DNA of 64,000 nucleotides, from positions 114,493,195 to 114,557,194 of the forward strand of contig CP136065.1 of the NCBI GenBank assembly GCA_032622095.1, read 5' to 3'. The first letter of the stretch is position 1; every line of letters starts with the position of its first letter. Source of the DNA: Siphonodentalium dalli. Lineage: Eukaryota; Mollusca; Scaphopoda; Gadilida; Siphonodentaliidae. Below the pieces are notes generated by a model. The model was not told the DNA's origin, did not search any database, and saw only the letters and a program-made list of their open reading frames with translations. Below, piece after piece: positions 5,439 to 60,681 of the stretch. A program made the position numbers and the translations under genes.

Positions 5439-7405
5439 GTCGAGTTTTTTGGCAGTCAAACCAAACTTCTGCCAATAAGGTGCACAACCCCCGGGAAAAA
5501 AAGTTGGACAGTGGTATATTGCAATAGACCTATATACCAAATATCAATTGAATCCGTTAATATTTCATTGAGTTATCGCACGAACGGTGATCAAATTGTG
5601 ATTAAATTAGACAAACTAAGACCCATAACTCCGGAAAAAAAATTCGGACAAACCAGGTTTTCGAACTCGTCAAAGATATTGTTGCAATAGACTTATATAC
5701 CAAATATTGTTTAAATCGGTTAATATTTCATCGAGTTATCACGCTAACAGTGATAAAATTGCTAAAAATAGACAAACTAATACCCATAACCCCGCGAAAA
5801 ATTTTGGACAAACCTGGTTTTCGAACTCGTAAGAAATATTGTTGCAGGACACTCATACACCAAATATTGTTGAGATCGGTTAATATTTCATCAAGTTATC
5901 GCGCTAACGGTGATAACATTGCTAAAAATAGACAAACTAAGACCCATAATTCCGCATAAACAACTCGGACAAACCTGGTTTTCGAACTCGTCCGAGATAT
6001 TGTTGCAGGAGACTCACATACCAAATATTGTTGAAATCAGTTAATATTTCATCGAGTTATCGTGCTAACGGTGATAAAATTGCTAAAAATAGACAAACTA
6101 AGACCCATAACTCCACGAAAACAACTCGGACAAACCTGGTTTTCGAACTCGTCCGAGATATTGTTGCAGGAGACTCACATACCAAATATTGTTGAAATCA
6201 GATAATATTTCATCGAGTTATCGCGCTATCGGTGATAAAATTGCTAAAAATAGACAAACTAAGACCCATAACTCCGCGGAAAAAAATTGGACAAACCTGG
6301 TTTTCGAACTCGTCCGAGATATTGTTGCAGGAGACTCATATACCAAATATTGTTAAAATTGGTAATATTTCATCGAGTTATCGCGCTATCGGTAATAAAA
6401 TTGCTAAAAATAGACAAACTAAGACCCATAACTCCTCGAAAAATATTTGGACAAACCTGGTTTTCGAACTCGTCCGAGATATTGTTGCAGGAGACTCATA
6501 TACCAAATATTGTTGAAATCAGTTAATATTTCATCGAGTTATCGCGCTATCGGTGATAAAATTGCTAAAAATAGACAAACTAAGACCCATAACTCCTCGA
6601 AAAATATTTGGACAAACCTGGTTTTCGAACTCGTCCGAGATATTGTTGCAGGAGACTCATATACCAAATATTGTTGAAATCGGTTAATATTTCATCGAGT
6701 TATCGCGCTATCGGTGATAAAATTGCTAAAAATAGACAAACTAAGACCCATAACTCCGGGAAAAAAAATTGGACAAACCTGGTTTTCGAACTCGTCCGAG
6801 ATATTGTTGCAGGAGACTCATATACCAAATATTGTTAAAATTGGTAATATTTCATCGAGTTATCACACTATCGGTGATAAAATTGCTAAAAAATAGACAA
6901 ACTAAGACCCATAACTCCTCGAAATATATTTGGACAAACCTGGTTTTCGAACTCGTCCGAGATATTGTTGAAATCGGTTAATATTTCATCGAGTTATCGC
7001 GCTATCGGTGATAAAATTGCTAAAAATAGACAAACTAAGACCCATAACTCCGCGAAAATAATTTGGACAAACCTGGTTTTCGAACTCGTCCGAGATATTG
7101 TTGCAAGAGTCTCATATACCAAATATTGTTGAAATTGGTTAATATTTGCATGAGTTATCGCGCTATCGGCGAAAAACTTAACTAAAAACCATCTAAGATG
7201 GATAACTCTTGTAAAAAAGTTCGGACATGACCCATTTTCTACAGGCAGTAAATAGTCATTGGGAGCAACTGCCATACCAATTTTTTTTTTAATCCGTTCA
7301 CAAATGTCAAAGTTATAAGGCATTCTTTAGGTCCGCCCGCCAGCCGCCTGCCCGCCAACCGTCCCTCGCCAAACCATAAGTCGAGTTTTTGAAAAACTCG
7401 ACTAA
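5439..7405 (+). mobile_element. pearl/Helitron-like element with ten 161-bp tandem monomers
   Basis: Monomers starting GACAAACTAAGACCC begin at 5608, 5770, 5931, 6092, 6253, 6413, 6574, 6735, 6896 and 7028, so the period is 160-162 bp. The ninth monomer lacks about 29 bp. The left end starts GTCGAGTTTTTT (5439). The right end has a purine/pyrimidine-rich unique part, then a perfect hairpin GTCGAGTTTTT/AAAAACTCGAC (7380-7402) closed by CTAA (7402-7405). A 3' hairpin plus CTRR terminus and a left-end copy of the hairpin stem fit non-autonomous Helitron/Helentron elements with tandem cores, such as oyster pearl elements. Reading frames across the array come from the repeat and are not genes. Confidence 0.8.
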
Positions 7406-29330: not shown

Positions 29331-29430
29331 GACTACTTTGTATTAATTTTTTTTTTATAATACTAATAACTAAAAAAATAAGTCATCAAAGCTGGAAATA
29401 ACACCAGTCACACTGACCACATAGTGACAT

Positions 29431-32400
29431 GGGCTCTTTCACGTTAAAGGTTGACTAGAAGTGGCCAAGTAGGGTGAAAAAAAAGTGTTTTTCAAATTAC
29501 TTTTTATTCATTAATTCATGTTAGGAACATCATACTGGATCATGAACTAAAGTTTCAGAGCAGGAGCAAGTGTATTTTGATTTCTCAGGCTTGGTCTATG
29601 CAGGATTTCCTCAAAATTGAAAATTCTGAATAACTAATTTCTAATGTCTGAATTTTAATTATTATGCATCTGTTTCTGGAACGATATCACATGACATTGA
29701 GCATTGAACAATCAGAGAAAATATATGTGAAAATTACTTGAAAATTCTTTGAATTTTCATATTTTTAAAATTTATATGTAAATTATGAACTTTAATATTC
29801 ATATTCCCTATTCTCCCTATTCTCGGAGAGGACACACTTTTTTAACATTTGTTCACTGTAGATATCAGAGTCTTGTAACTCAATAATAGAAAGATTGCCG
29901 ATTTTCATTGTCTTGTTATATATTTTAGACAACTTGAATAGATCTGTCAAACTGAAAAATGAGAAAATAAACATATTAAGACTTTTGGAAACACGACTCG
30001 ACAAATGATTGGGGCAAAATCTGTTGTCCCATAACCGTTTTTATTTGTACCCATACCATAGTATGGTATACGTAATGTTGACGTTCAGATTGACCACTAA
30101 TCGCCCATCCGTCTCTATCCGTAGGTAGACATTTTACGCATGGTGCGATAACTCAAACATTTTCTAACCAATCGGAACCAAATTTTGTACGAGTTTCTCA
30201 TCCCAAAATGCAGGATGAGTTTGAAAATGGGTTTGATCCGATTGTTAAATAGAGGTATGGGCCTTTTTCGACTTAGAATTCGCACATGCTGCGATGACAC
30301 AATCATGTTTTTATCTGATTAGAACCAAATCTGGTATTTTGGTTTGTGATTTCGCAGCCCAAAATACAGATCATTGCAAGTTCGAATATGGGTTTGATCC
30401 AATTTTTTTTCAGGAGTTATGGTCCTTTTTCGACTTACAATTATTCAGATGTGAGGTTTACTGATTAATACAAGCTTTACTGTATAAGAGACAAGAGACA
30501 CCTGCAGACAAGGCAAATTTTTTAAATAGAGTTATTTTTAGCTGTCATATGTTAGCCCTATTATAATCTGTAACTCATTGGCATTCATAAATGAATGGAC
30601 TCTCCCATTTCATTCTAAAAGTAAAAATTGGAATAGTCCATTGTCCATTTGTATGGATGTTTTCAGAATATGAGCAGACAGAGCGAACCCACATTTAATG
30701 TAGTAGTGCACTATCTAAAATTCAAAATTATTTGCAGTCTCACTGGGCCGATTTCCATAATACATGGTATGCAGACATAGTTTATAATTTGTTCATAGGG
30801 TCATGGTTGAGTGGATTTTAGGGGACAATAATGGGTGAGAAGATTAATATTGATTGAGAGCTATGGGGTTGTCATGGATTTCATGTTGAGAACAGAAATC
30901 AATGCTTTCCTATGTATGAAACAAATTTATTGAGGGCTATAGAGCATTTGGAAAAGGGGCTATCTTCAGTGTATCGTGTCAGGGGCTTCATCAGTCCTAG
31001 TCAGGAGGCATTAAAAGAGTCAGATAACACTAAATAAAATAAGAACTTAAAAAAAATGTTCTCCAGTCCAAAAAGGCAGATAAACAGCGCATTGTTAATT
31101 AATACTTGGTGTGGATTATTGCTATGAACCATAATTTCCTATTTGTTCATCCTGTCATGGTTGATTGAAATTTAGGGGCCATGGAGCGCTTAGAAGATTA
31201 ACATTGATTATTAGTTATTTTAGCGTCCAAGCTACTTGTAAAACATTGTAATGTGTGAAATCATTCTATTCGGGGTTATTAACTGTTTTCACATGTATAC
31301 GGGTCAAAATGTAAAAAGTGACAATTTTCACGTAACACCCCTAATCATTGGTAGAAAATTAAAACAGTGCTTAGCTGTGGTTATATTTCTATTTTTATTG
31401 ATAGCTGAGGTTACATTGAGATTTTAAAATGCACGCGTTTTATTATAATCATTATATTATTCTTGCTCCAGCCTTCCAAACATTGCAATACCTGTAAAAA
31501 TGCCATGTAACAGATGGGATTTCCAAACTTTGAGTATGATTTCTTTAAAAACTACCAAATGTAATTGATATAATTTTCTCTAAAAAGTATACATAAAACT
31601 AGATAATTATTCTGAATGTGTAATTATATCCAGTATGTAAAAGGTGTTTCTGAATTTAAGCTGTTTCTGCGTGTAACACTTTTTATGTCATTCCTGTTAC
31701 CATATAACAAAAACTGCAGTTAGCAGTTATGAGGATGCGGACATAGATGGCTATTTGAGCCTAAGTGATAGGACATGTGATGGCAATGTATGTGAAAGTA
31801 AACATGTATGCATTTAAGAAGCTGTTTTTCGATGCTGAAGCGATTAAGTTGTTACTTTTAGGGAGTATGTTAATTCAGTGTCATTCCTGTTACCATGATA
31901 TAGCAAGAAAATATAATTAAATCAGTATCCGCTTTATTTTTTTAGTTTACTTTACAAAAGTTCTTTAAAACTAAAATAAAATGGATTTATCTCTCTGGTT
32001 ATTTCAAACTGAAAAATCTCATCAAAAATAAAAATGTCATTCCTGTTGCTGTCATCCCTGTTACTTGAACCAATAAAAAGTAACAGATATGACTAATAGT
32101 AACAGGAATGACAAACATATATCAGTTGATAGGATTTCTAAAATAAGAACAGCAAACATTATCAAACCTGTATTTTCTGTTGTGGTGTGTACACAATTTA
32201 CGTTGTCAGGTAGGATATCTGTGTTGGGTTGCAATCTTGGGATTGGGTGTTGCCCGAGTTTTCGTACCTACATTATATCTTGCAGGTGGGTTAATATGGG
32301 GTAGGGAAGGGTGGCATTGCGAACGGACCTTGTGATATTGATGCAAGTTCATTCAACATTAATTTTCATAACTTCCGAACATTTAGCTGGACAAGTGGGC

Positions 32401-38578: not shown

Positions 38579-41500
38579 AAGATATTTGTTTATAATATGG
38601 AAGTGATATTTAGTACAAGTACATATATCAAAATAATCGTATTTTCACAAATATCCGATTATTAACAAGAGGCTGATCATGATCAGCAGATGTTTAACCC
38701 ATCCCTCGGCGATAGTAAAAAGCTATGATTGGAATCATAATCTACAGTTATAATGTTGAATTATAGAGAGTTATATATTTTGTAATGTACTAATATTAGT
38801 ACAGACAAATGTACATAATAACACAAATTCTCAAATTATTGGAATTTGTTGGTCCTTGTGCCAATTTTCATTAGTAGTCTCACTTTGACAAATTGACATT
38901 GATAGGCATATAATAATATTGGAATACCCTAGGTTCAACCTGAGATATATGAACAAAGTTCATAGCCTGGTAGTCAGTATAGCTCTCAAGAAAATAGTTG
39001 AGACCATACAAGTAACAAATGTATTATCTATACTATGTTTATACACCATAATATGATGAGGATTCTGCCCCATATGACCCTTATCACACTCAGTACAGAT
39101 TACCATAGTTCATATTAAAGACAGTAAGTAGCGCCCAATAGAATTATTTCACACATCACAATGTTTTGTAATTACCTTGAACGCTAAAATCAATAATATT
39201 CAATGTTAATCTTCTGTGCTCACTCTGTGGCCCCTAAATTTCAATCAACCATGGCAAGATGAACAACTTGGAAACTATTGTTTATCACAATAATCCATAC
39301 CAAGTATTAACAATGTTCATCTGCCTTCTTGGACTGGAGAAATAGATTTTTGAAGTACTTATCTTATTTAGAGTTATCTGGCCCTTTAATGCCACCTGAC
39401 TAGAACCCCCTGAAGCTCCTGACATGATAAACTGAAGATACCGCTAGCCCCTTTTCCAAATGCTCTAATAGCACTCACTAGATTTGTTTCTTTCATAGAA
39501 AAGCATTGATTTCTGTTCTCGACATGAAATCCATGACAACCCCATAGCCCTCAATGTTAATCTTCTCACCCCATCGGTGTCCCCTAAAATCCACTCAACC
39601 ATGACCAAATGAACAAATTATAAACTATGTCTTATGGCAATGCTCAATACGAAGTACATGTATTATGGAAATCCACCCAGTGAGACTGCAAATAATTTTG
39701 AATTTTAAATAAACTACTACATTAAATGTGGGTTCGCTGTCTGCTCATATTCTGAAAAAAATCCCTACCAATGAACAATGGACTATTCTAATTTATACTT
39801 TTAGAATTAAATTGGAAACTCCATTCATTTATGAATGCCAATGCATTACAGATTATAATAGGGCTAACATATGATAGCTAAAAAATAACTCTATTTCAAA
39901 GATTCACGTTGTCTGTAGGTGTCTCTTATATAGTGAAGCCTGTATTAATCAGGAAACCTCACATCTGAATAATTCTAAGTCGAAAAAGGCCAATAACTCC
40001 AGTAAAAAAAATTGGAACCCATATTGGAACTTGGTTTGCATTCTGGGCTGAGAAATCACAAACCAATTACCAAATTTGGTTCCGATCAGATATAACATGT
40101 TTCAGTCATGCATGAATCTAAGTCGAAGAGGCCCATACCTATACCTATATGATAAAAAATTCAGATCAAACCCATTTTCAAACTCATACTGCAATTTGGG
40201 CTGAGAAACTCATTCAAAATTCAGTTCCGATTGCAAGAAAATGTTTGAGTTATTGCATCATGCGTAAAATGTCTATGTATGGATAGACAGACGGACGGAC
40301 AATGAGTAGTCAAGCTGGACCGAAACTATGTGTACCATACATAAAAACTGGTTATGGCCTTTTGGGACAACAGATTTTGCCCAACTTATCATTTGCCATG
40401 TTTCCAAGAGTCTCAATATGTTTATCTTCACTTATCTCAGTTTGACAGGCCTATTCAAGTTCTATAAAATATATTACAAGGCAATGGAAATTAGTAATCT
40501 TTCTATCATCTAGTTACAAGACTGATGTCTACAGAGAATGAATGTTAAATGAAAGTGTCAATGACACTGTAGCTCAACTTGGAAAGGGAATAATTTAATG
40601 TATTACAGTCAATGGAGCGATTAGGAATGTGGAAAGTTGAATGTCTAATACTAGTTTATAGACATGAAGAGAAAAGTAAAATCCAAGATGGCTGCTGGCG
40701 GCCATGTTTTCGGCCGAATGACCCCAAAATGATTGTATCCCATCTACATGTCATCGTTAACATCCATGACAAATTTTATGACGATCAGACTAAAGGTACG
40801 ACCTGTAGCCTATGCTAAAGGATTTAGTCATACAAAGAGTAAAATCCAAGATGGCTGCTGGCGGCCATGTTTTTTAGCCGAATGACACCAAAATGACTCG
40901 TTCCCATCTACATGTCATTATTAACATCTATGACAAATTTTATGATGATCAGACTAAAGGTACGACCTGTAGCCCATGCTAAAGAATTTAGTCATACAAA
41001 GAGTAAAATCCAATATTAACAACCATGACAAATTTCATGATGATCAGACGAACAGTACGACCTGTGGCCCATGCTAATGGATTAAATTTTGAAATCCAAG
41101 ATGGCCACTGGCGGCCATGTTTTTTGTCCGAATGACCCCAAAATGACTCGTTCCCATTTACATTCCAATTTCAACAGCCATGACACAAATGTTATGATGA
41201 TCAGACTAAATGTACGACCTGTAGCCCGTGCTAAAGGATTTAGTCATACAAAGAGTAAAATCAAAGATGGCTGCTGGCGGCCATGTTTTTCTGCCGAATG
41301 ACCCCAAAATTACTCGTTCCCATTTACATTCCAATTTCAACAGCCATGACAAATTTTATGATGATCAGACTAAAGGTACGACCTGTAGCCCGTGCTAAAG
41401 GATTTAGTCATACAAAGAGTAAAATCAAAGATGGCTGCTGGCGGCCATGTTTTTCTGCCGAATGACCCCAAAATGACTCGTTCCCATCTACATATCATTA

Positions 41501-41589
41501 TTAACATTCACGACAAATTTTATGATGATCAGACTAAAGGTACAACCTGTAGCCCGTGCTAAAGGATTTAGTCATACAAAGAGTAAAAT

Positions 41590-42227
41590 CCAAGATGGCT
41601 GCTGGCGACCATGTTTTTTGGCCGAATGACCCCAAAATTACTCGTTCCCATCTACATGTCATTGTTAACATCCATGACAAATTTTATGATGATCAGACGA
41701 ACAGTACGACCTGTGGCCCGTGCTAATGGATTAAATTTTGAAATCCAAGATGGCTACTGGCGGCCATGTTTATTGGCCGAATGACCCCAAAATTACTCGT
41801 TCCCATCTACATTCCAATTTCAACAGCCACGACAAATTTTATGATGATCAGACTAAAGGTACGGCCTGTAGCCCGTGCTAAAGGATTTAGTCATACAAAG
41901 AGTAAAATCCAAGATGGCTGCTGGCGACCATGTTTTTTGGCCGAATGACCCCAAAATTACTCGTTCCCATCTACATGTCATTGTTAACATCCATGACAAA
42001 TTTTATGATGATCAGACGAACAGTACGACCTGTGGCCCGTGCTAATGGATTAAATTTTGAAATCCAAGATGGCTACTGGCGGCCATGTTTATTGGCCGAA
42101 TGACCCCAAAATTACTCGTTCCCATCTACATTCCAATTTCAACAGCCACGACAAATTTTATGATGATCAGACTAAAGGTACGGCCTGTAGCCCGTGCTAA
42201 AGGATTTAGTCATACAAAGAGTAAAAT
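41590..42227 (+). repeat. two-monomer higher-order repeat, 319 bp x 2
   Basis: Positions 41590-41908 and 41909-42227 appear identical by eye over 319 bp. Each block holds one monomer ending AATGGATTAAATTTTGAAAT and one ending AGTCATACAAAGAGTAAAAT. Neighbouring monomers differ more. This suggests a recent duplication of a dimer within the array. Confidence 0.8.
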
Positions 42228-43175
42228 CCAAGATGGCTGCTGGCGGCCATGTTTTTTGGCCGATTGACCCCAAAATGACTCGTTTCCCATCTACATGTCA
42301 TTATTAACATTCTTGACAAATTTTATGATGATCAGACTAAAAGTACGACCTGTAGCCCGTGCTAAAGGATTTAGTCATACAAAGAGTAAAATCCAAGATG
42401 GCTGCTGGCGGCCATGTTTTTTGGCCGAATGACCCCAAAATTACTCGTTCCCATCTACATGTCAATATTAACATCCATGACAAATTTGATGATGATCAGA
42501 CTAAAGGTACGACCTGTAGCCCGTGCTAAAGAATTTAGTCATACAAAGAGTAAAATCCAAGAAGGCTGCTGGCCGCCATGTTTTTTGGCCGAATGACCCC
42601 AAAATTACTCGTTCCCATCTACATGTCAATATTAACATCCATGACAAATTTCATGATGATCAGACGAACAGTACGACCTGTGGCCCGTGCTAATGGATTG
42701 AATTTTGAAATCCAAGATGGCCGCTGGCGGCCATGTTTTTTGTCCGAATGACCCCAAAATGACTCGTTCCCATCTACATTCCAATTTCAACAGCCATGAC
42801 AAATTTTATGATGATCGGACTAAAGGTACGACCTGTAGCCCGTGCTAAAGGATTTAGTCATACAAAGAGTGAAATCAAAGATGCCTGCTGGCGGCCATGT
42901 TTTTTGGCCGAATGACCCCAAAATTACTCGTTCCCATCTACATGTCAATATTAACATCCATGACAAATTTCATGACGATCAGACAAACAGTACGCCCTGT
43001 AGCCCGTGCTAATGGATTGAATTTTGAAATGCAAGATGGCCACTGGCGGCCATGTTTTTTTACCGAATGACCCCAAAATTAATCATTCTGGTCTAAATGT
43101 TGATGTCAACAGCTATGACAAATTTCATAATGATCCGACCAAAGGTACGACCTGTAGACTGCATTGTTGACGCCT

Positions 43176-43232: not shown

Positions 43233-43591
43233 AAAGCCATGGCAATAGCTCAAACTTTACAAAGTAAAGTTGAGCTAAAAAGGGTGTCCTCTCCGAGAAT
43301 AAGTCAGTGGAAATTGGCGATTTAAAAAAATGCTCTTGTTGAGTCAATTGTTGTCCGATTTTGATAATGTTTTCAACATTACAATCCTTAAAGCATGCAC
43401 TTCAACTTTAGATGTAAAATCTTTACACAACTAAATCATCTTTCTATTATCAGAGAATAGCCATTAGGGAATATGGATATTATTATTAAGAGTTCATAAT
43501 TTACATATAAATTTGAAAAATATCGAAATTTGAAGATTTATTTACTAATTTTGACATATACGTGCTCTGATTGTTCAATGCTCAACGTCGT

Positions 43592-45094
43592 TATGGCAAG
43601 CCAAACCGCTATTTAATATTAATTTTACTTAAGTAAAATAAAATTACACTTTATTTTACTTAAGTGATATAAAATGTCCTTTTATTTAACTTAAGTGAAA
43701 TAACGGTCATTTTTTATTTTACTTAAGTAAAAAACTATTTTACTTAAGTAAAATTAACCATGTTTTAACTTAAGTAGAATTCTTTTTTACTTAAGTAAAA
43801 TAAGAAATGACCTTTATTTTACTTAAGTAAAAAAGAATTCTACTTAAGTAAAATAATGCGTTAATTTTACTTAAGTAAAATAAATGACATCTATCGATGA
43901 CCGGTAGATGGCGTTTATTTCACTTAAGTGAAATAAAGCGCCCACTATGGGAGTAATCTTGCAAACTAATAATTTCTCCCTTGGCACGTACGCCGGGAGT
44001 GCTGTTCATGTTCGTGAGAAAGTTAGCTCCCGTTGTGTATTATAAATGGCGGATTTCTTCCATTTACTAATAATAGGCCTAACGTATTTACATAATTATG
44101 GCAGATTCAGTCGATACAACACTGGACTCAATTTCCAGGGTTATACGAGAGACTGATAGACTGAAGGGGGTATAGGAGATTTGCATCGCACGGAGATCAG
44201 AATACGTACCGCTGTTGTCAAAAAACTTCTAACCTGACAACTCGAGGGAACTATAACCAATACATATATTGCACCCAGTGAGATGTAATACGAGAGCACC
44301 TAGAGACTATAATAAATTCGCCCGCTGCATGTACCAGCATAATAAGCATCAAACAACGCATCACACATTTTAGCAGTTTTCTCTGATTATAGCTGTACCA
44401 GCAGTGGGTGTGGAATGTTTTAAATTTTATTGCATGATGTCGGTGCTATAAGCTGTCTGTATTGTTTTGAGAGAGAGTGTGAGTTATAGTAAATACGTCT
44501 TTAATCTATCTAAGTATTTTACAACTGCCGAGTAGCTCTGTGGCACACATGTTCTGTATCACCCGTTGGGGGAAATCATTAATAACTCTTAACACCCGGT
44601 TGCACTTTATTTTACTTAAGTAAAATAAATGACATCTATCTATGACCGGTAGATGGCGTTTATTTCACTTAAGTGAAATAAACCCAAATGTTCATTTATT
44701 TTACTTAAGTAAAAAAGAATTTTACTTAAGTTAAATAAAAACTGTGTTTTATTTCACTTAAGTGAAATTCTTTTTTACTTAAGTGAAATAAAAAAAGGGC
44801 GTAACATAATGGTAATTTTATTTCACTTAAGTAAAATTAGTGTGCGTTTTAATTTTACTTAAGTAAAATAAAATGTCATTTTATTTTACTTAAGTAAAAT
44901 AAAGTGTCATTTTATTTTACTTAAGTAAAATAAAACCATGTAGATGGCGCTTTATTTCACTTAAGTAAAATAAAATGACACTTTATTTTACTTAAGTAAA
45001 ATAAAATGTCATTTTATTTCACTTAAGTGAAATAAAGTGTCATTTTATTTTACTTAAGTAAAATTAATATTAAATAGCAGTTTGGCTTGCCATA
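43592..45094. mobile_element. 1.5-kb foldback built from CTTAAG palindromes, 6-bp target duplication
   Basis: Ends TATGGCAAGCCAAAC are mirrored, and CGTCGT flanks both sides (43586-43591, 45095-45100). Unit L at about 29690 shows the uninterrupted sequence. The element contains 25 CTTAAG-centred palindromes, mostly TTTTACTTAAGTAAAA or TTTCACTTAAGTGAAA, 11 in the left arm (43627-43925) and 14 in the right arm (44613-45057), spaced 15-60 bp. The outer 50-70 bp of the two arms are almost identical in inverse orientation. A 680-bp single-copy middle carries a short ORF. No transposase motif. Class unassigned. Confidence 0.85.
44098..44175 (+). other. 25-codon ORF in the middle of the foldback
   Basis: Starts MADSVDTTLDSISRVIRE and ends in KGV followed by TAG. 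The middle segment is less AT-rich than the arms and upstream has AAATGGCGGATTTC. A possible donor GGGG|GTATAG overlaps the end. It looks like a leader and first coding exon, possibly captured from a host gene, but there is no recognised homologue and it may be chance. Confidence 0.3.
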
Positions 45095-46271
45095 CGTCGT
45101 GTGATATCGTTCTGGAAACAGATGCATAATAATTAAAATTCAGACATTAGAAATTAGTTGTTCATTATTTTCAATTTTGAGGGAATCCTGCATAGACCAA
45201 ATCTGAAAAATCAAAATACACTTGCTACTGCTCTGAAACTTGAGTTCACGATCCAGTATGATGTTCCTAACATGAATTAACGAAGAAAAAGTAATTTGAA
45301 AAACACTTTTTTTTCACCCTGTTTGGCACTTGTGGCAAGTTGTGCCAAGTTGTGGTCAACCTTTAACGTGAAAGAGCCCATATATCAATTTTCTCAAGAA
45401 TTAATTCGTTTTATTTTATAGAGGTTGCCGTCAGAATATAAGGTAAATTATGTGGCAGAAATCTGTATAAAAATAGAAATACTCATGTGACCTGAGACCA
45501 TCAGGGATAACGCAAAAAGTTCTCTAAATGAGAACTTAATTCCATTGCGGTCCCATGGCCATGCATGATGCACTTCCCTGTAGTGTAAGTTGTAACTGTA
45601 ACTCTTACTCTACATATATGTGTGATAGAGATTTGTCATTATCAAAGTACAAACAAGAGGAGTGACAGAGGTCGCGACGTGGCTAAGAAGCCGTATATAT
45701 CGTATTCAAGTGCAACTCACCACAAGTCGGCGCAAACTAATTTTCACGTTTGACGACTTTCGAAGTGATGCGGCGAAATAAGGATAGCACTTATCGACGT
45801 CAACTCACAATAAAAGCTACGGCCGTCCTGGTTTGATAGTTATTGATTCTTTAAACAAACGAGATGCTAAACAATATTCCAACGGTATTAGCGAAATAAA
45901 TCCTCTTATAAATGTCGGAAATCGCGTCACAAATTTACATTCGATGCGTGAAAAATAAAAAAACAGTTTTTCCACCATGAGCATTTACCTTGCCAACAAC
46001 TACCCAGAATGCAAAGCGCTGACCTCAAAATAACCAGTGAGAGGTCAATCGCTAAAGCGAAAGTAGTTTAACCCATTATCCCCGATCACATTCAATAGGA
46101 ATGTGATTTCAAATCTAATGACTTTGCATGGAGTTTGCATCAATCAATTGATCCATCTGAGTAAACTATTTTATTTGTCATATTTCTTCAATAATAATGA
46201 ATGAAATGAGGTGCTTTTTCGGTATGAGATAGAGTAGAGATTTATGGCATGTTCTAGTTGCCTATTATAAT

Positions 46272-46962: not shown

Positions 46963-48895
46963 AGTGTCAATGACACTGTAGCTCAACTTGGAAAGGGAAT
47001 AATTTCATGTGTTAAAGTCAATGGAGTGATTAGGAATGTGGAAAGTGGAAAGGCCTAGTTATGCAAAGAGTAAAATCTAAGATGGCCACTGGCAGCCATG
47101 TTTTTTTGCCAAATGACCCCAAAAAGACTCGTTCCCATTTACATGTCATTATTAACATCCCGTACAAATTTCATGATGATCTGACAAATGATACGACCTG
47201 TAGCCTGTGTCAAAGGATTTAGTCATGCAAAGAGTAAAATCCAAGATGGCTGCTGGGAGCCATGTTTTTTGGCCAAATGACTCCAAAATGAATAATTCCC
47301 ATCTACATGTCATTGTTAACATCCATAAAAAATTTCATGAAGATCTGACCAAAGCTACGACCTGTAGGCCGCGCCAAAGGATTTAGTCATGCAAAGAGTT
47401 AAATCCAAGATGACTTCTGGTGGCCATTTATTTTGGCCGAATGACCCCAAAATGACTCGTTCCCATCTACATGTCAATATTAAAGGTACTCAATCCGATA
47501 AAACTCCTCTCAATTACTATTTCAATGGCTTCGGGGGTCAAAAATATTTGATTCGAGTCGAGGAAGTCACCCATCAAAGCTCAGATTTGTTAGATATCGA
47601 TTGTAGAATCTATTATTTTTCATTATCGGGAATACTTTCTGGCCCAGATCTCAGGCAAAATTGCGCTATTATTACCACTTGATTTTAGAGTTATCCATCC
47701 TTGTCTGTTTGAATAGAGTTTTGGTGTATAAATCTCGAGCAGGATACGAAATTGACGGCAATTATTAGTACTCATCTCGAGAACATAACAAATTTCACAA
47801 AAATCAATATCTAATAACTCTCGAGCTTTGTTTGATGGGTTCCTCGACTAGAATCAAATATTTTTTTACCCCCAAAGCCAAAGAAATAGTAATATAGGAC
47901 CCTCTGATCAGATTGTTGTGGTTGGAATCTGTTGAGATGGGGACCCTCTTTACGGATTGAGTACCTTTAACATCTATGACAAATTTCATGATGATCAGAC
48001 GAGCAGTATGACCTGTAGCCCGTGCCAATGGATTGAATTTTGAAATCCAAAATGGCGGCTGGTGGCCATGTTTTTTGCCGAATGACCCCAAAATAACTCG
48101 TTCCCATCAACATGACAATGTCAACATTCATGACAAATTTCATAAAGATCGGACAAAAGGTACGACCTGTAGCCGTGCTAATGGATTGAATTTTGAAATC
48201 CAAGATGGCCGCTGGCGGCCATGTTGTTTGTCCGAATGACCCAAAAATGACTCGTTCCCATCTACATTCCAATTTCAACAGCCATGACAAATTTCATGAT
48301 GATCAGACTAAAGGTACGACCTGTAGCCCGTGCTAAAGGATTTAGTCATACAAAGAGTAAAATCCAAAATGGCTGCTGGCGGCCATGTTTTTTTGCCGAA
48401 TGACCCCAAAATTACTCTTTCCCATCTACATGTCATTGTTAACATCCATGACACATTTTATGATGATCCGACCAAAGGTACGACCTGTAGGCCGTGCCAA
48501 AGAATTTAGTCATGCAAAGAGTAAAATCTAAGATGGCAGCCGGTGGCGATGTTTTTTGGCCGAACAACCCCAAAATTACTCGTTCCCATCTACATGTCAA
48601 TATTAACATCCATGACAAATTTCATGATGATCAGATGAACAGTACGACCTGTAGCCCGTGCTAATGGATTGAATATTGAAATCCAAGATGGCCACTGGCG
48701 GCCATGTTTTTTTCCCGAATGAACCCAAAATGACTCGTTCCCATCTACATGTCAACAGCTATGACAAATTTCATAATGATCCGACCAAAGGTACGACCTG
48801 TAGCCCGTGCTAAAGGAAATTGTTGACGCATCACGCACACACGGACGACAAAGCCATGGCAATAGCTCAAACTTTACAAAGTAAAGTTGAGCTAA
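46963..48895 (+). mobile_element. pearl/Helitron-like element, second long copy, split by a MITE
   Basis: The left end GTGTCAATGACAC and following TGTAGCTCAACTTGG match 40550. Monomers of the CCAAGATGGC type follow. At 47484 the TTAA MITE copy B interrupts one monomer between CAATA and CATCTATGAC. The right end has GGACGACAAAGCCATGGC, the AACTTTAC/GTAAAGTT hairpin and CTAA at 48892-48895. Non-coding. Confidence 0.8.
47484..47966 (+). mobile_element. TTAA-flanked MITE, copy B
   Basis: 483 bp, ends AGGTACTCAATCCG and CGGATTGAGTACCT, TTAA on both sides (47480-47483, 47967-47970). Removing the element and one TTAA restores CAATATTAACATC as present in other monomers (for example 42952). This fixes the boundaries exactly. 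Homologous to 25386-25778 in inverse orientation. Confidence 0.9.
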
Positions 48896-60038: not shown

Positions 60039-60681
60039 ATCTCTTCTGGTTAGTGGAAAGGTCACTGACATAATGTCCTGTTATATTCTTGATGCTCTGT
60101 CTAGAAATTCCAGCTTGATACATAATTGTAACAGTTGAAACACGCTGTGGCATGTGTATACTTAAGTAAGGCCTGCTTTGTTGAAAATAGTTTGCATCAT
60201 TTGATCTACCTTGTTTTTGCCAAATGATTCTTTTTTGTTCCATTGATTTGTTTAGTATGAATTCCAATGTTTTTTGGAACAGTCTATCTATTTCAGGATA
60301 CAGCTTACTGATAAATAATTTGAGAATGTCAACTCCAATGCCATACATTCTTTAGGTGTTGTAATCCACATCTTTCTATTTGTATCCACCCTGGTGATTT
60401 TATCTAACTTCTGTTTTGGATAGGCATGCATACTCATGTCCCTCTGAATCAAAGTTTATTTTGAAACCTTTGTCATGTCGGCCCACCTGTCTCGACCTCT
60501 TCGACCAAAGAAAAGGAAAGGAGTAACCAGCAGGATTCGAGTAATACATTTCGGTAACTGTTCCATGTACGGAAGTAATGTCCAAGTTCATATCCCCTTC
60601 CCCAATAGGTTTGTGCTGAGGCTTCCTGTTACCAGCTTTGAAATATACTTTACATCTAGGTGCAAATATGTTATTTGCCAT
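59971..60681 (-). pseudogene. Crypton-like (DUF3504) tyrosine-recombinase relic
   Basis: On the minus strand: RQVGRHDKGFKINFDSEGHE, then YACLSKTEVR and, after a frame change near 60400, DKITRVDTNRKMW; after another change near 60350, ILKLFISKLYPEIDRLFQK; then VTIMYQAGISRQSIKNITGH. This order (GREY...KTK..., CP..FK.YISKLNPE.D.LFQ, ...T...AGI....I...TGH) is that of DUF3504 Crypton-derived recombinases. The Arg-containing TNHSIRAT motif is degraded (LSIHMPQRVST). Two frameshifts and a missing start make it inactive. The final part runs into the hairpin at 59887-60038. Confidence 0.7.

Follow-up and report, generated by a model that had tools for sequence, protein, structure and literature searches.

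A 1,503-bp element at positions 43592 to 45094 of the window, the stretch of 64,000 nucleotides analysed here (C5:114493195-114557194, in a host assembly of 2.23 Gb in nine contigs, taken to be eukaryotic by size and repeat content), is probably a non-autonomous DNA transposon of the IS3EU type in foldback form, and the palindromes arrayed in its arms would serve to dock the transposase. This reading is drawn from the ends and duplications of the element, from its copies in the genome, and from a second family that has the same end and palindrome core but different symmetric flanks.

Structure and insertion of the element

The features of the element and of its target are as follows.

43586 to 43591, no strand: target-site duplication CGTCGT, left copy, from the flank sequence
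43592 to 43606, plus strand: left end TATGGCAAGCCAAAC, of which the first 11 bp are common to the second family
43619 to 43936, no strand: left arm, 11 sites centred on ACTTAAGT, by site count
43937 to 44604, no strand: centre, lacking ACTTAAGT and varying between copies, unlike the arms
44098 to 44175, plus strand: open frame MADSVDTTLDSISRVIRETDRLKGV of 25 codons with its stop, within the centre
44605 to 45067, no strand: right arm, 14 sites centred on ACTTAAGT, by site count
45080 to 45094, minus strand: right end, inverted copy of the 15-bp TATGGCAAGCCAAAC, from the end search
45095 to 45100, no strand: target-site duplication CGTCGT, right copy, from the flank sequence
29429 to 29813, minus strand: empty site, an uninterrupted relative of the target, 86% identical to the joined flanks

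The first-pass annotation described a foldback element of 25 CTTAAG-centred sites with mirrored ends and a 6-bp duplication, and the counts agreed with it. The window held 25 copies of ACTTAAGT inside the element and one more at 60160, as against a mean of 1.57 and a maximum of 6 in window shuffles, and 17 of the 25 sites were perfect 16-bp palindromes. The outer inverted repeat measured 112 nt at 93% identity, and a search of the window for TATGGCAAGCCAAAC with up to three mismatches returned only the two termini, on opposite strands. CGTCGT was present on both sides. Long inverted arms with internal repetition, set about a centre, place it in the foldback structural class.

The annotation also held that an uninterrupted unit L proves the insertion. 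We took this unit to be the minus-strand stretch 29813-29429, to which the joined flanks aligned over 405 bp without a break across the junction. There the 6-bp spot occurs once, as TGTCAT, indicating that the element is an insertion, as had been claimed.

The open frame MADSVDTTLDSISRVIRETDRLKGV was identical in four more copies and extended to 57 codons in another (L049); it had no Pfam match and is possibly the remnant of a gene start. By inspection of the sequence, a TATAAATGG motif lies upstream of it in the centre.

The surroundings of the element are repetitive. Arrays of a 164-bp tandem repeat flank it on both sides (40675-43157 and 47056-48817), and the latter run is broken at 47484-47966 by a 483-bp stretch with ends AGGTACTCAAYCCG, a TTAA-inserting signature. 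A further array, of 161-bp period and also of periods 321 and 482 bp, lies at 5532-7188.

Two families of copies and their class

The annotation staked its reading on further copies with the same ends and with duplications that hold across copies, and the genome supplied both. The exact 15-bp end occurred 507 times (259 forward, 248 reverse; 126, 86, 153 and 142 when grouped by the preceding base), and its reversed control never. On contigs C1-C4, for which the end positions are complete, 147 and 153 ends (300) gave 106 adjacent facing pairs less than 16 kb apart. By length, 6 pairs were below 300 bp, 23 of 300-999 bp, 39 of 1,000-1,550 bp, 20 of 1,551-2,999 bp and 18 of at least 3 kb; 37 of the 106 fell at 1.25-1.55 kb, and 29 were shorter than 1 kb. 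In a non-random sample of 51 pairs, made up of the pairs found first and then of long ones, the 6-bp duplication was exact in 38, had one mismatch in 5 and was otherwise in 8. This sample counts some related loci separately: L004 and L005, which have mirrored flanks, are probably one duplicated insertion; L047 and L050, which lie in opposite orientation on C3, are probably a single insertion present at both loci, with an internal segment of some 1.5 kb occurring three times in the former and twice in the latter; and L003 and L010 have common flanks and no duplication. The number of CTTAAG sites ranged from 0 to 45 per pair over 43 pairs, some of the sites lying inside nested inserts.

A second family came to light inside one of the copies (L069), which holds a 988-bp nested insert with the duplication GAAATT, ends TATGGCAAGCCGTT and 17 CTTAAG sites of its own, mostly within TTGGACTTAAGTCCAA palindromes. 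A pattern for this family (TATGGCAAGCC, a next base other than A, and CTTAAG 8-38 bases further) matched the genome 612 times and its reversed control never; among the 100 matches listed, one was a first-family variant, two ends appeared twice, and the remainder had the second-family end. The 6-bp duplication was exact in 9 of 12 copies, with one mismatch in 1 and otherwise in 2, and the 47 exact duplications over both families were 47 distinct strings, so that a fixed target sequence was not seen. The two families are identical over the first 11 bp of the end and differ in the bases directly after. The ACTTAAGT core is common to both, and the symmetric flanks differ, TTGGACTTAAGTCCAA as against TTTTACTTAAGTAAAA and TTTCACTTAAGTGAAA, with both sides changed together (TTTT/AAAA, TTTC/GAAA, TTGG/CCAA). 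The second-family loci fetched held 2 to 31 CTTAAG each, and in one of them (L071) 19 of 23 sites were the palindrome TTGGACTTAAGTCCAA.

The class of the element went unrecognised in the first-pass annotation, but its ends and duplications match a published signature. In the available text of the sources, IS3EU elements are bounded by TA..TA and usually make duplications of 6 bp (PMC10045372), and those of rust fungi have 6-bp duplications, terminal inverted repeats (TIRs) of more than 30 bp and ends TAYGG..CCRTA (PMC12730594). The present element has ends TATGG..CCATA, the 112-nt inverted repeat and duplications of 6 bp in both families, and we therefore read it as IS3EU-type and non-autonomous. 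The likeness to IS3EU, grouped with GingerRoot, thus covers the duplications, both end patterns and the TIRs; the arms differ in being palindrome arrays, which the available text of the IS3EU descriptions does not mention, and no transposase was found here; the filing as IS3EU rests on the ends and duplications.

Assignment to hAT6 instead is quite improbable. Such elements likewise make 6-bp duplications according to the available text (PMC12730594), which the present copies fit, and a BED zinc-finger frame occurs inside one copy (L023). However, that frame sits in a separate nested insert of 1,318 bp with a 9-bp border overlap, and the ends of the element fit TAYGG..CCRTA. A relation to piggyBac or other TTAA elements was rejected, since the duplications are 6 bp long and varied rather than TTAA, and the TTAA overlaps seen in the copies belong to nested inserts.

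The annotation had suggested looking for an autonomous relative with the same ends, and this search yielded none. We fetched all 18 pairs of at least 3 kb on C1-C4, together with 5 of the 10 that measured 2-3 kb and, from C5, pairs 3.4 and 10.4 kb long. All 18 long pairs proved to be the 1.3-1.5-kb element, whole or partial, with inserts that account for the extra length. Pfam scans of part of the frames listed from 80, 120 or 130 aa upward detected no IS3-like transposase in the 18 pairs. The domains identified were a piggyBac-type DDE_Tnp_1_7 (L048), a tyrosine-recombinase fragment (L053), BED (L023), an endonuclease/exonuclease domain (L027), and reverse transcriptase, by itself in L066 and together with a tyrosine-recombinase domain in L067/L068; frames of L054 and L056 had no Pfam match. 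No transposase was seen in the long second-family loci L070, L076/L077 and L078-L081. A frame in L070, L076 and L078 was not called coding because it was conserved no more than its surroundings. In L078, a frame at 1003-1569 beside second-family ends showed sub-cut-off Pfam similarity to GDSL-like lipase/acylhydrolase.

Model searches of the genome gave the same outcome. With the IS481 model, 67 of 4,423 candidates were scored, and the matches examined were retrotransposon-like integrases, none tied to the element ends. Of 12 IS481 loci cut out, 11 were Gypsy-type pol by eye, as was a further match (L062) cut out later. The twelfth locus (L040) is an integrase with an OTU domain, and its wider surroundings showed no matching ends. 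Its integrase-like frames (L040:105-2454) adjoin the OTU protease domain, unlike the Gypsy-type matches, and diverged inverted repeats occur in the wider locus. With the rve_3 model, 150 of 1,408 candidates were scored and 30 matched; those examined were likewise retrotransposon-like integrases, with no IS3-like gene tied to the ends.

Insertions nested in the copies

Many of the inserts had entered at TTAA. A 4-bp TTAA border overlap was present in 28 of 62 insert rows longer than 60 bp (24 of 53 plus 4 of 9; one repeat row from a second pairing of L023 is left out of the 62, and 3 of the 24 come from L050, probably a duplicate of L047), and the remaining rows had other overlaps or sequence missing at the border. 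Ends of six signatures adjoined CTTAA in 58 of 63 cases, counted without L005, L010, L050 and the last-fetched loci. One nested insert (L048) encodes the piggyBac-type transposase, and two others contain reverse-transcriptase frames.

These figures bear on whether the arrays exist as landing pads or decoys for TTAA-inserting transposons. The 58 of 63 ends at CTTAA would suit such a function, as against 25 of 39 TTAA that lie within CTTAAG in the window copy. The commonest nested end, AGGGGTACTGTAC, occurred 16,574 times after TTAA in the genome, tandem runs included, and 283 of these were in TTYACTTAA context; sites TTYACTTAAGTRAA numbered 3,855, as against 247 for the reversed control. In sampled genomic contexts of this family, a C preceded TTAA in 32 of 66 (kept from 100 after removal by hand of tandem-array rows and duplicate contexts, with a pattern that did not admit G at the eighth base ahead of TTAA). 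The excess at CTTAA is thus largely the commonest nested family's own preference, and the arrays were likely hit for their content, as a consequence and not the cause of their existence. On this context preference we rejected landing-pad function as the cause of the arrays, which we consider extremely improbable. The element illustrates how one transposon can be a frequent target of others, leading to large nested insertions.

At C1:7885280-7885854 and C1:13060924-13066067, AGGGGTACTGTAC runs in one orientation, with some copies 31-58 bp apart, as though a tandem repeat had arisen from a mobile element's end.

Possible role of the palindromes

The first-pass annotation suggested that each palindrome could bind a dimeric protein. 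The second family, with its same core and different symmetric flanks, gives this suggestion indirect support, and the binding itself is putative. A family of the same design with a different symmetric site points to docking sites rather than junk. The common core with jointly changed flanks, the symmetry and the low variation of the core point to a dimeric protein, and a transposase is the likeliest candidate by analogy with Galileo, for which the available text describes demonstrated binding of the transposase to sites within its repeats (PMC3688188). Most likely, then, the palindromes are docking sites for a dimeric protein, putatively the transposase.

The symmetry was examined by shuffling site halves, with counts that are not independent, as with those of spacing, because the units within an array are copies of each other. 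In the window copy the halves matched in 17 of 25 sites, as against 11.6 with shuffled halves (P 0.006). L071 alone showed no excess (19 as against 19.2), since its halves are nearly uniform. Pooling the two gave 36 matching sites as against 15.0, a value reached in 0 of 20,000 shuffles, which reflects mainly the difference between the families. Over 779 sites from 43 first-family pairs selected for CTTAAG, the match rate at distance 4 from the centre was 0.94 (0.87 with shuffled halves), at distance 5 it was 0.69 (0.53) and at distance 6 it was 0.88 (0.78); the excess was small or absent at distances 7-9 and 11, with a deficit at 13.

Across 11 uninterrupted copies, variable columns made up 7 of 200 in the core as against 36 of 390 in the spacers (Fisher P 0.011), a comparison biased by the choice of core columns from the window copy. 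The centres of 11 copies mismatched at 21% over 651 columns, partly because the alignment mixed centre types. Among these copies the arms were more alike than the centres; the arms are thus kept and the centres vary.

It is rather unlikely that the element is a real IS3EU type with passive palindromes, in which slippage or unequal exchange multiplies the units and hairpin-driven conversion keeps their symmetry. The range of 0 to 45 CTTAAG per pair (nested inserts partly included), the different internal repeat numbers of the probable duplicates L047 and L050, and the recurrence of spacings as blocks would all fit. However, the two families keep the ACTTAAGT core with symmetrically different flanks, and the core varies less than the spacers; conversion could explain the symmetry, and less easily the common core.

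The commonest first-family spacings were 31, 21, 32 and 53 bp, with a best period of 10.55-10.6 bp (8-14 bp scanned), one helical turn. Because the best period of the second family was 8.55 bp, helical phasing was rejected as a general rule; it is present in the first family alone.

Less probable again is the binding of a host dimeric factor, for example in transcription or chromatin packing, to the benefit of the element. The TATAAATGG motif ahead of the short open frame is compatible with this, and related factors would fit the two types of flank, but the arrays sit in both arms.

Under the docking reading, a transposase made elsewhere would recognise the ends (TATGGCAAGCC...) and excise the element, which would insert by a 6-bp staggered cut. 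The arm palindromes would most likely load a dimeric DNA-binding protein many times, probably the transposase itself, and repeated loading would raise binding and family specificity. More tentatively, a group of IS3EU-type transposons may be addressed family by family through their arrays of palindromic operators, with many dimers assembling on each arm: the ACTTAAGT core would be shared, the symmetric flanks would have changed together with the binding protein, and the palindromes would keep apart families that share the cleavage end TATGGCAAGCC.

Both foldback elements and IS3EU have been described before. Foldback and TU elements have long repeat arms around a centre, as here, and so does Tetris in the available description. 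To our knowledge, the repeats of Foldback, TU and Tetris are not palindromes built on a fixed core. Similar to the present case are bacterial REP palindromes with TnpA-REP, in that, in the available text, palindromes are linked to a transposase; that system is bacterial, has other chemistry and is not known to make a 6-bp duplication. Galileo, of the P superfamily in Drosophila, is described in the available text as having long, internally repetitive TIRs with several shown transposase binding sites; it differs in superfamily and in having long direct repeats in place of short palindromes. Among the titles and abstract openings listed from the open-licence literature, we saw no description of palindrome arms with a common core and family-specific symmetric flanks, nor of arrays of palindromes in the arms of IS3EU elements.

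On the question of why some transposons have long repetitive arms, Galileo offers direct binding evidence in the available text. Sharing an end and a core but differing in their symmetric flanks, the two families of this one genome constitute a natural experiment on specificity.
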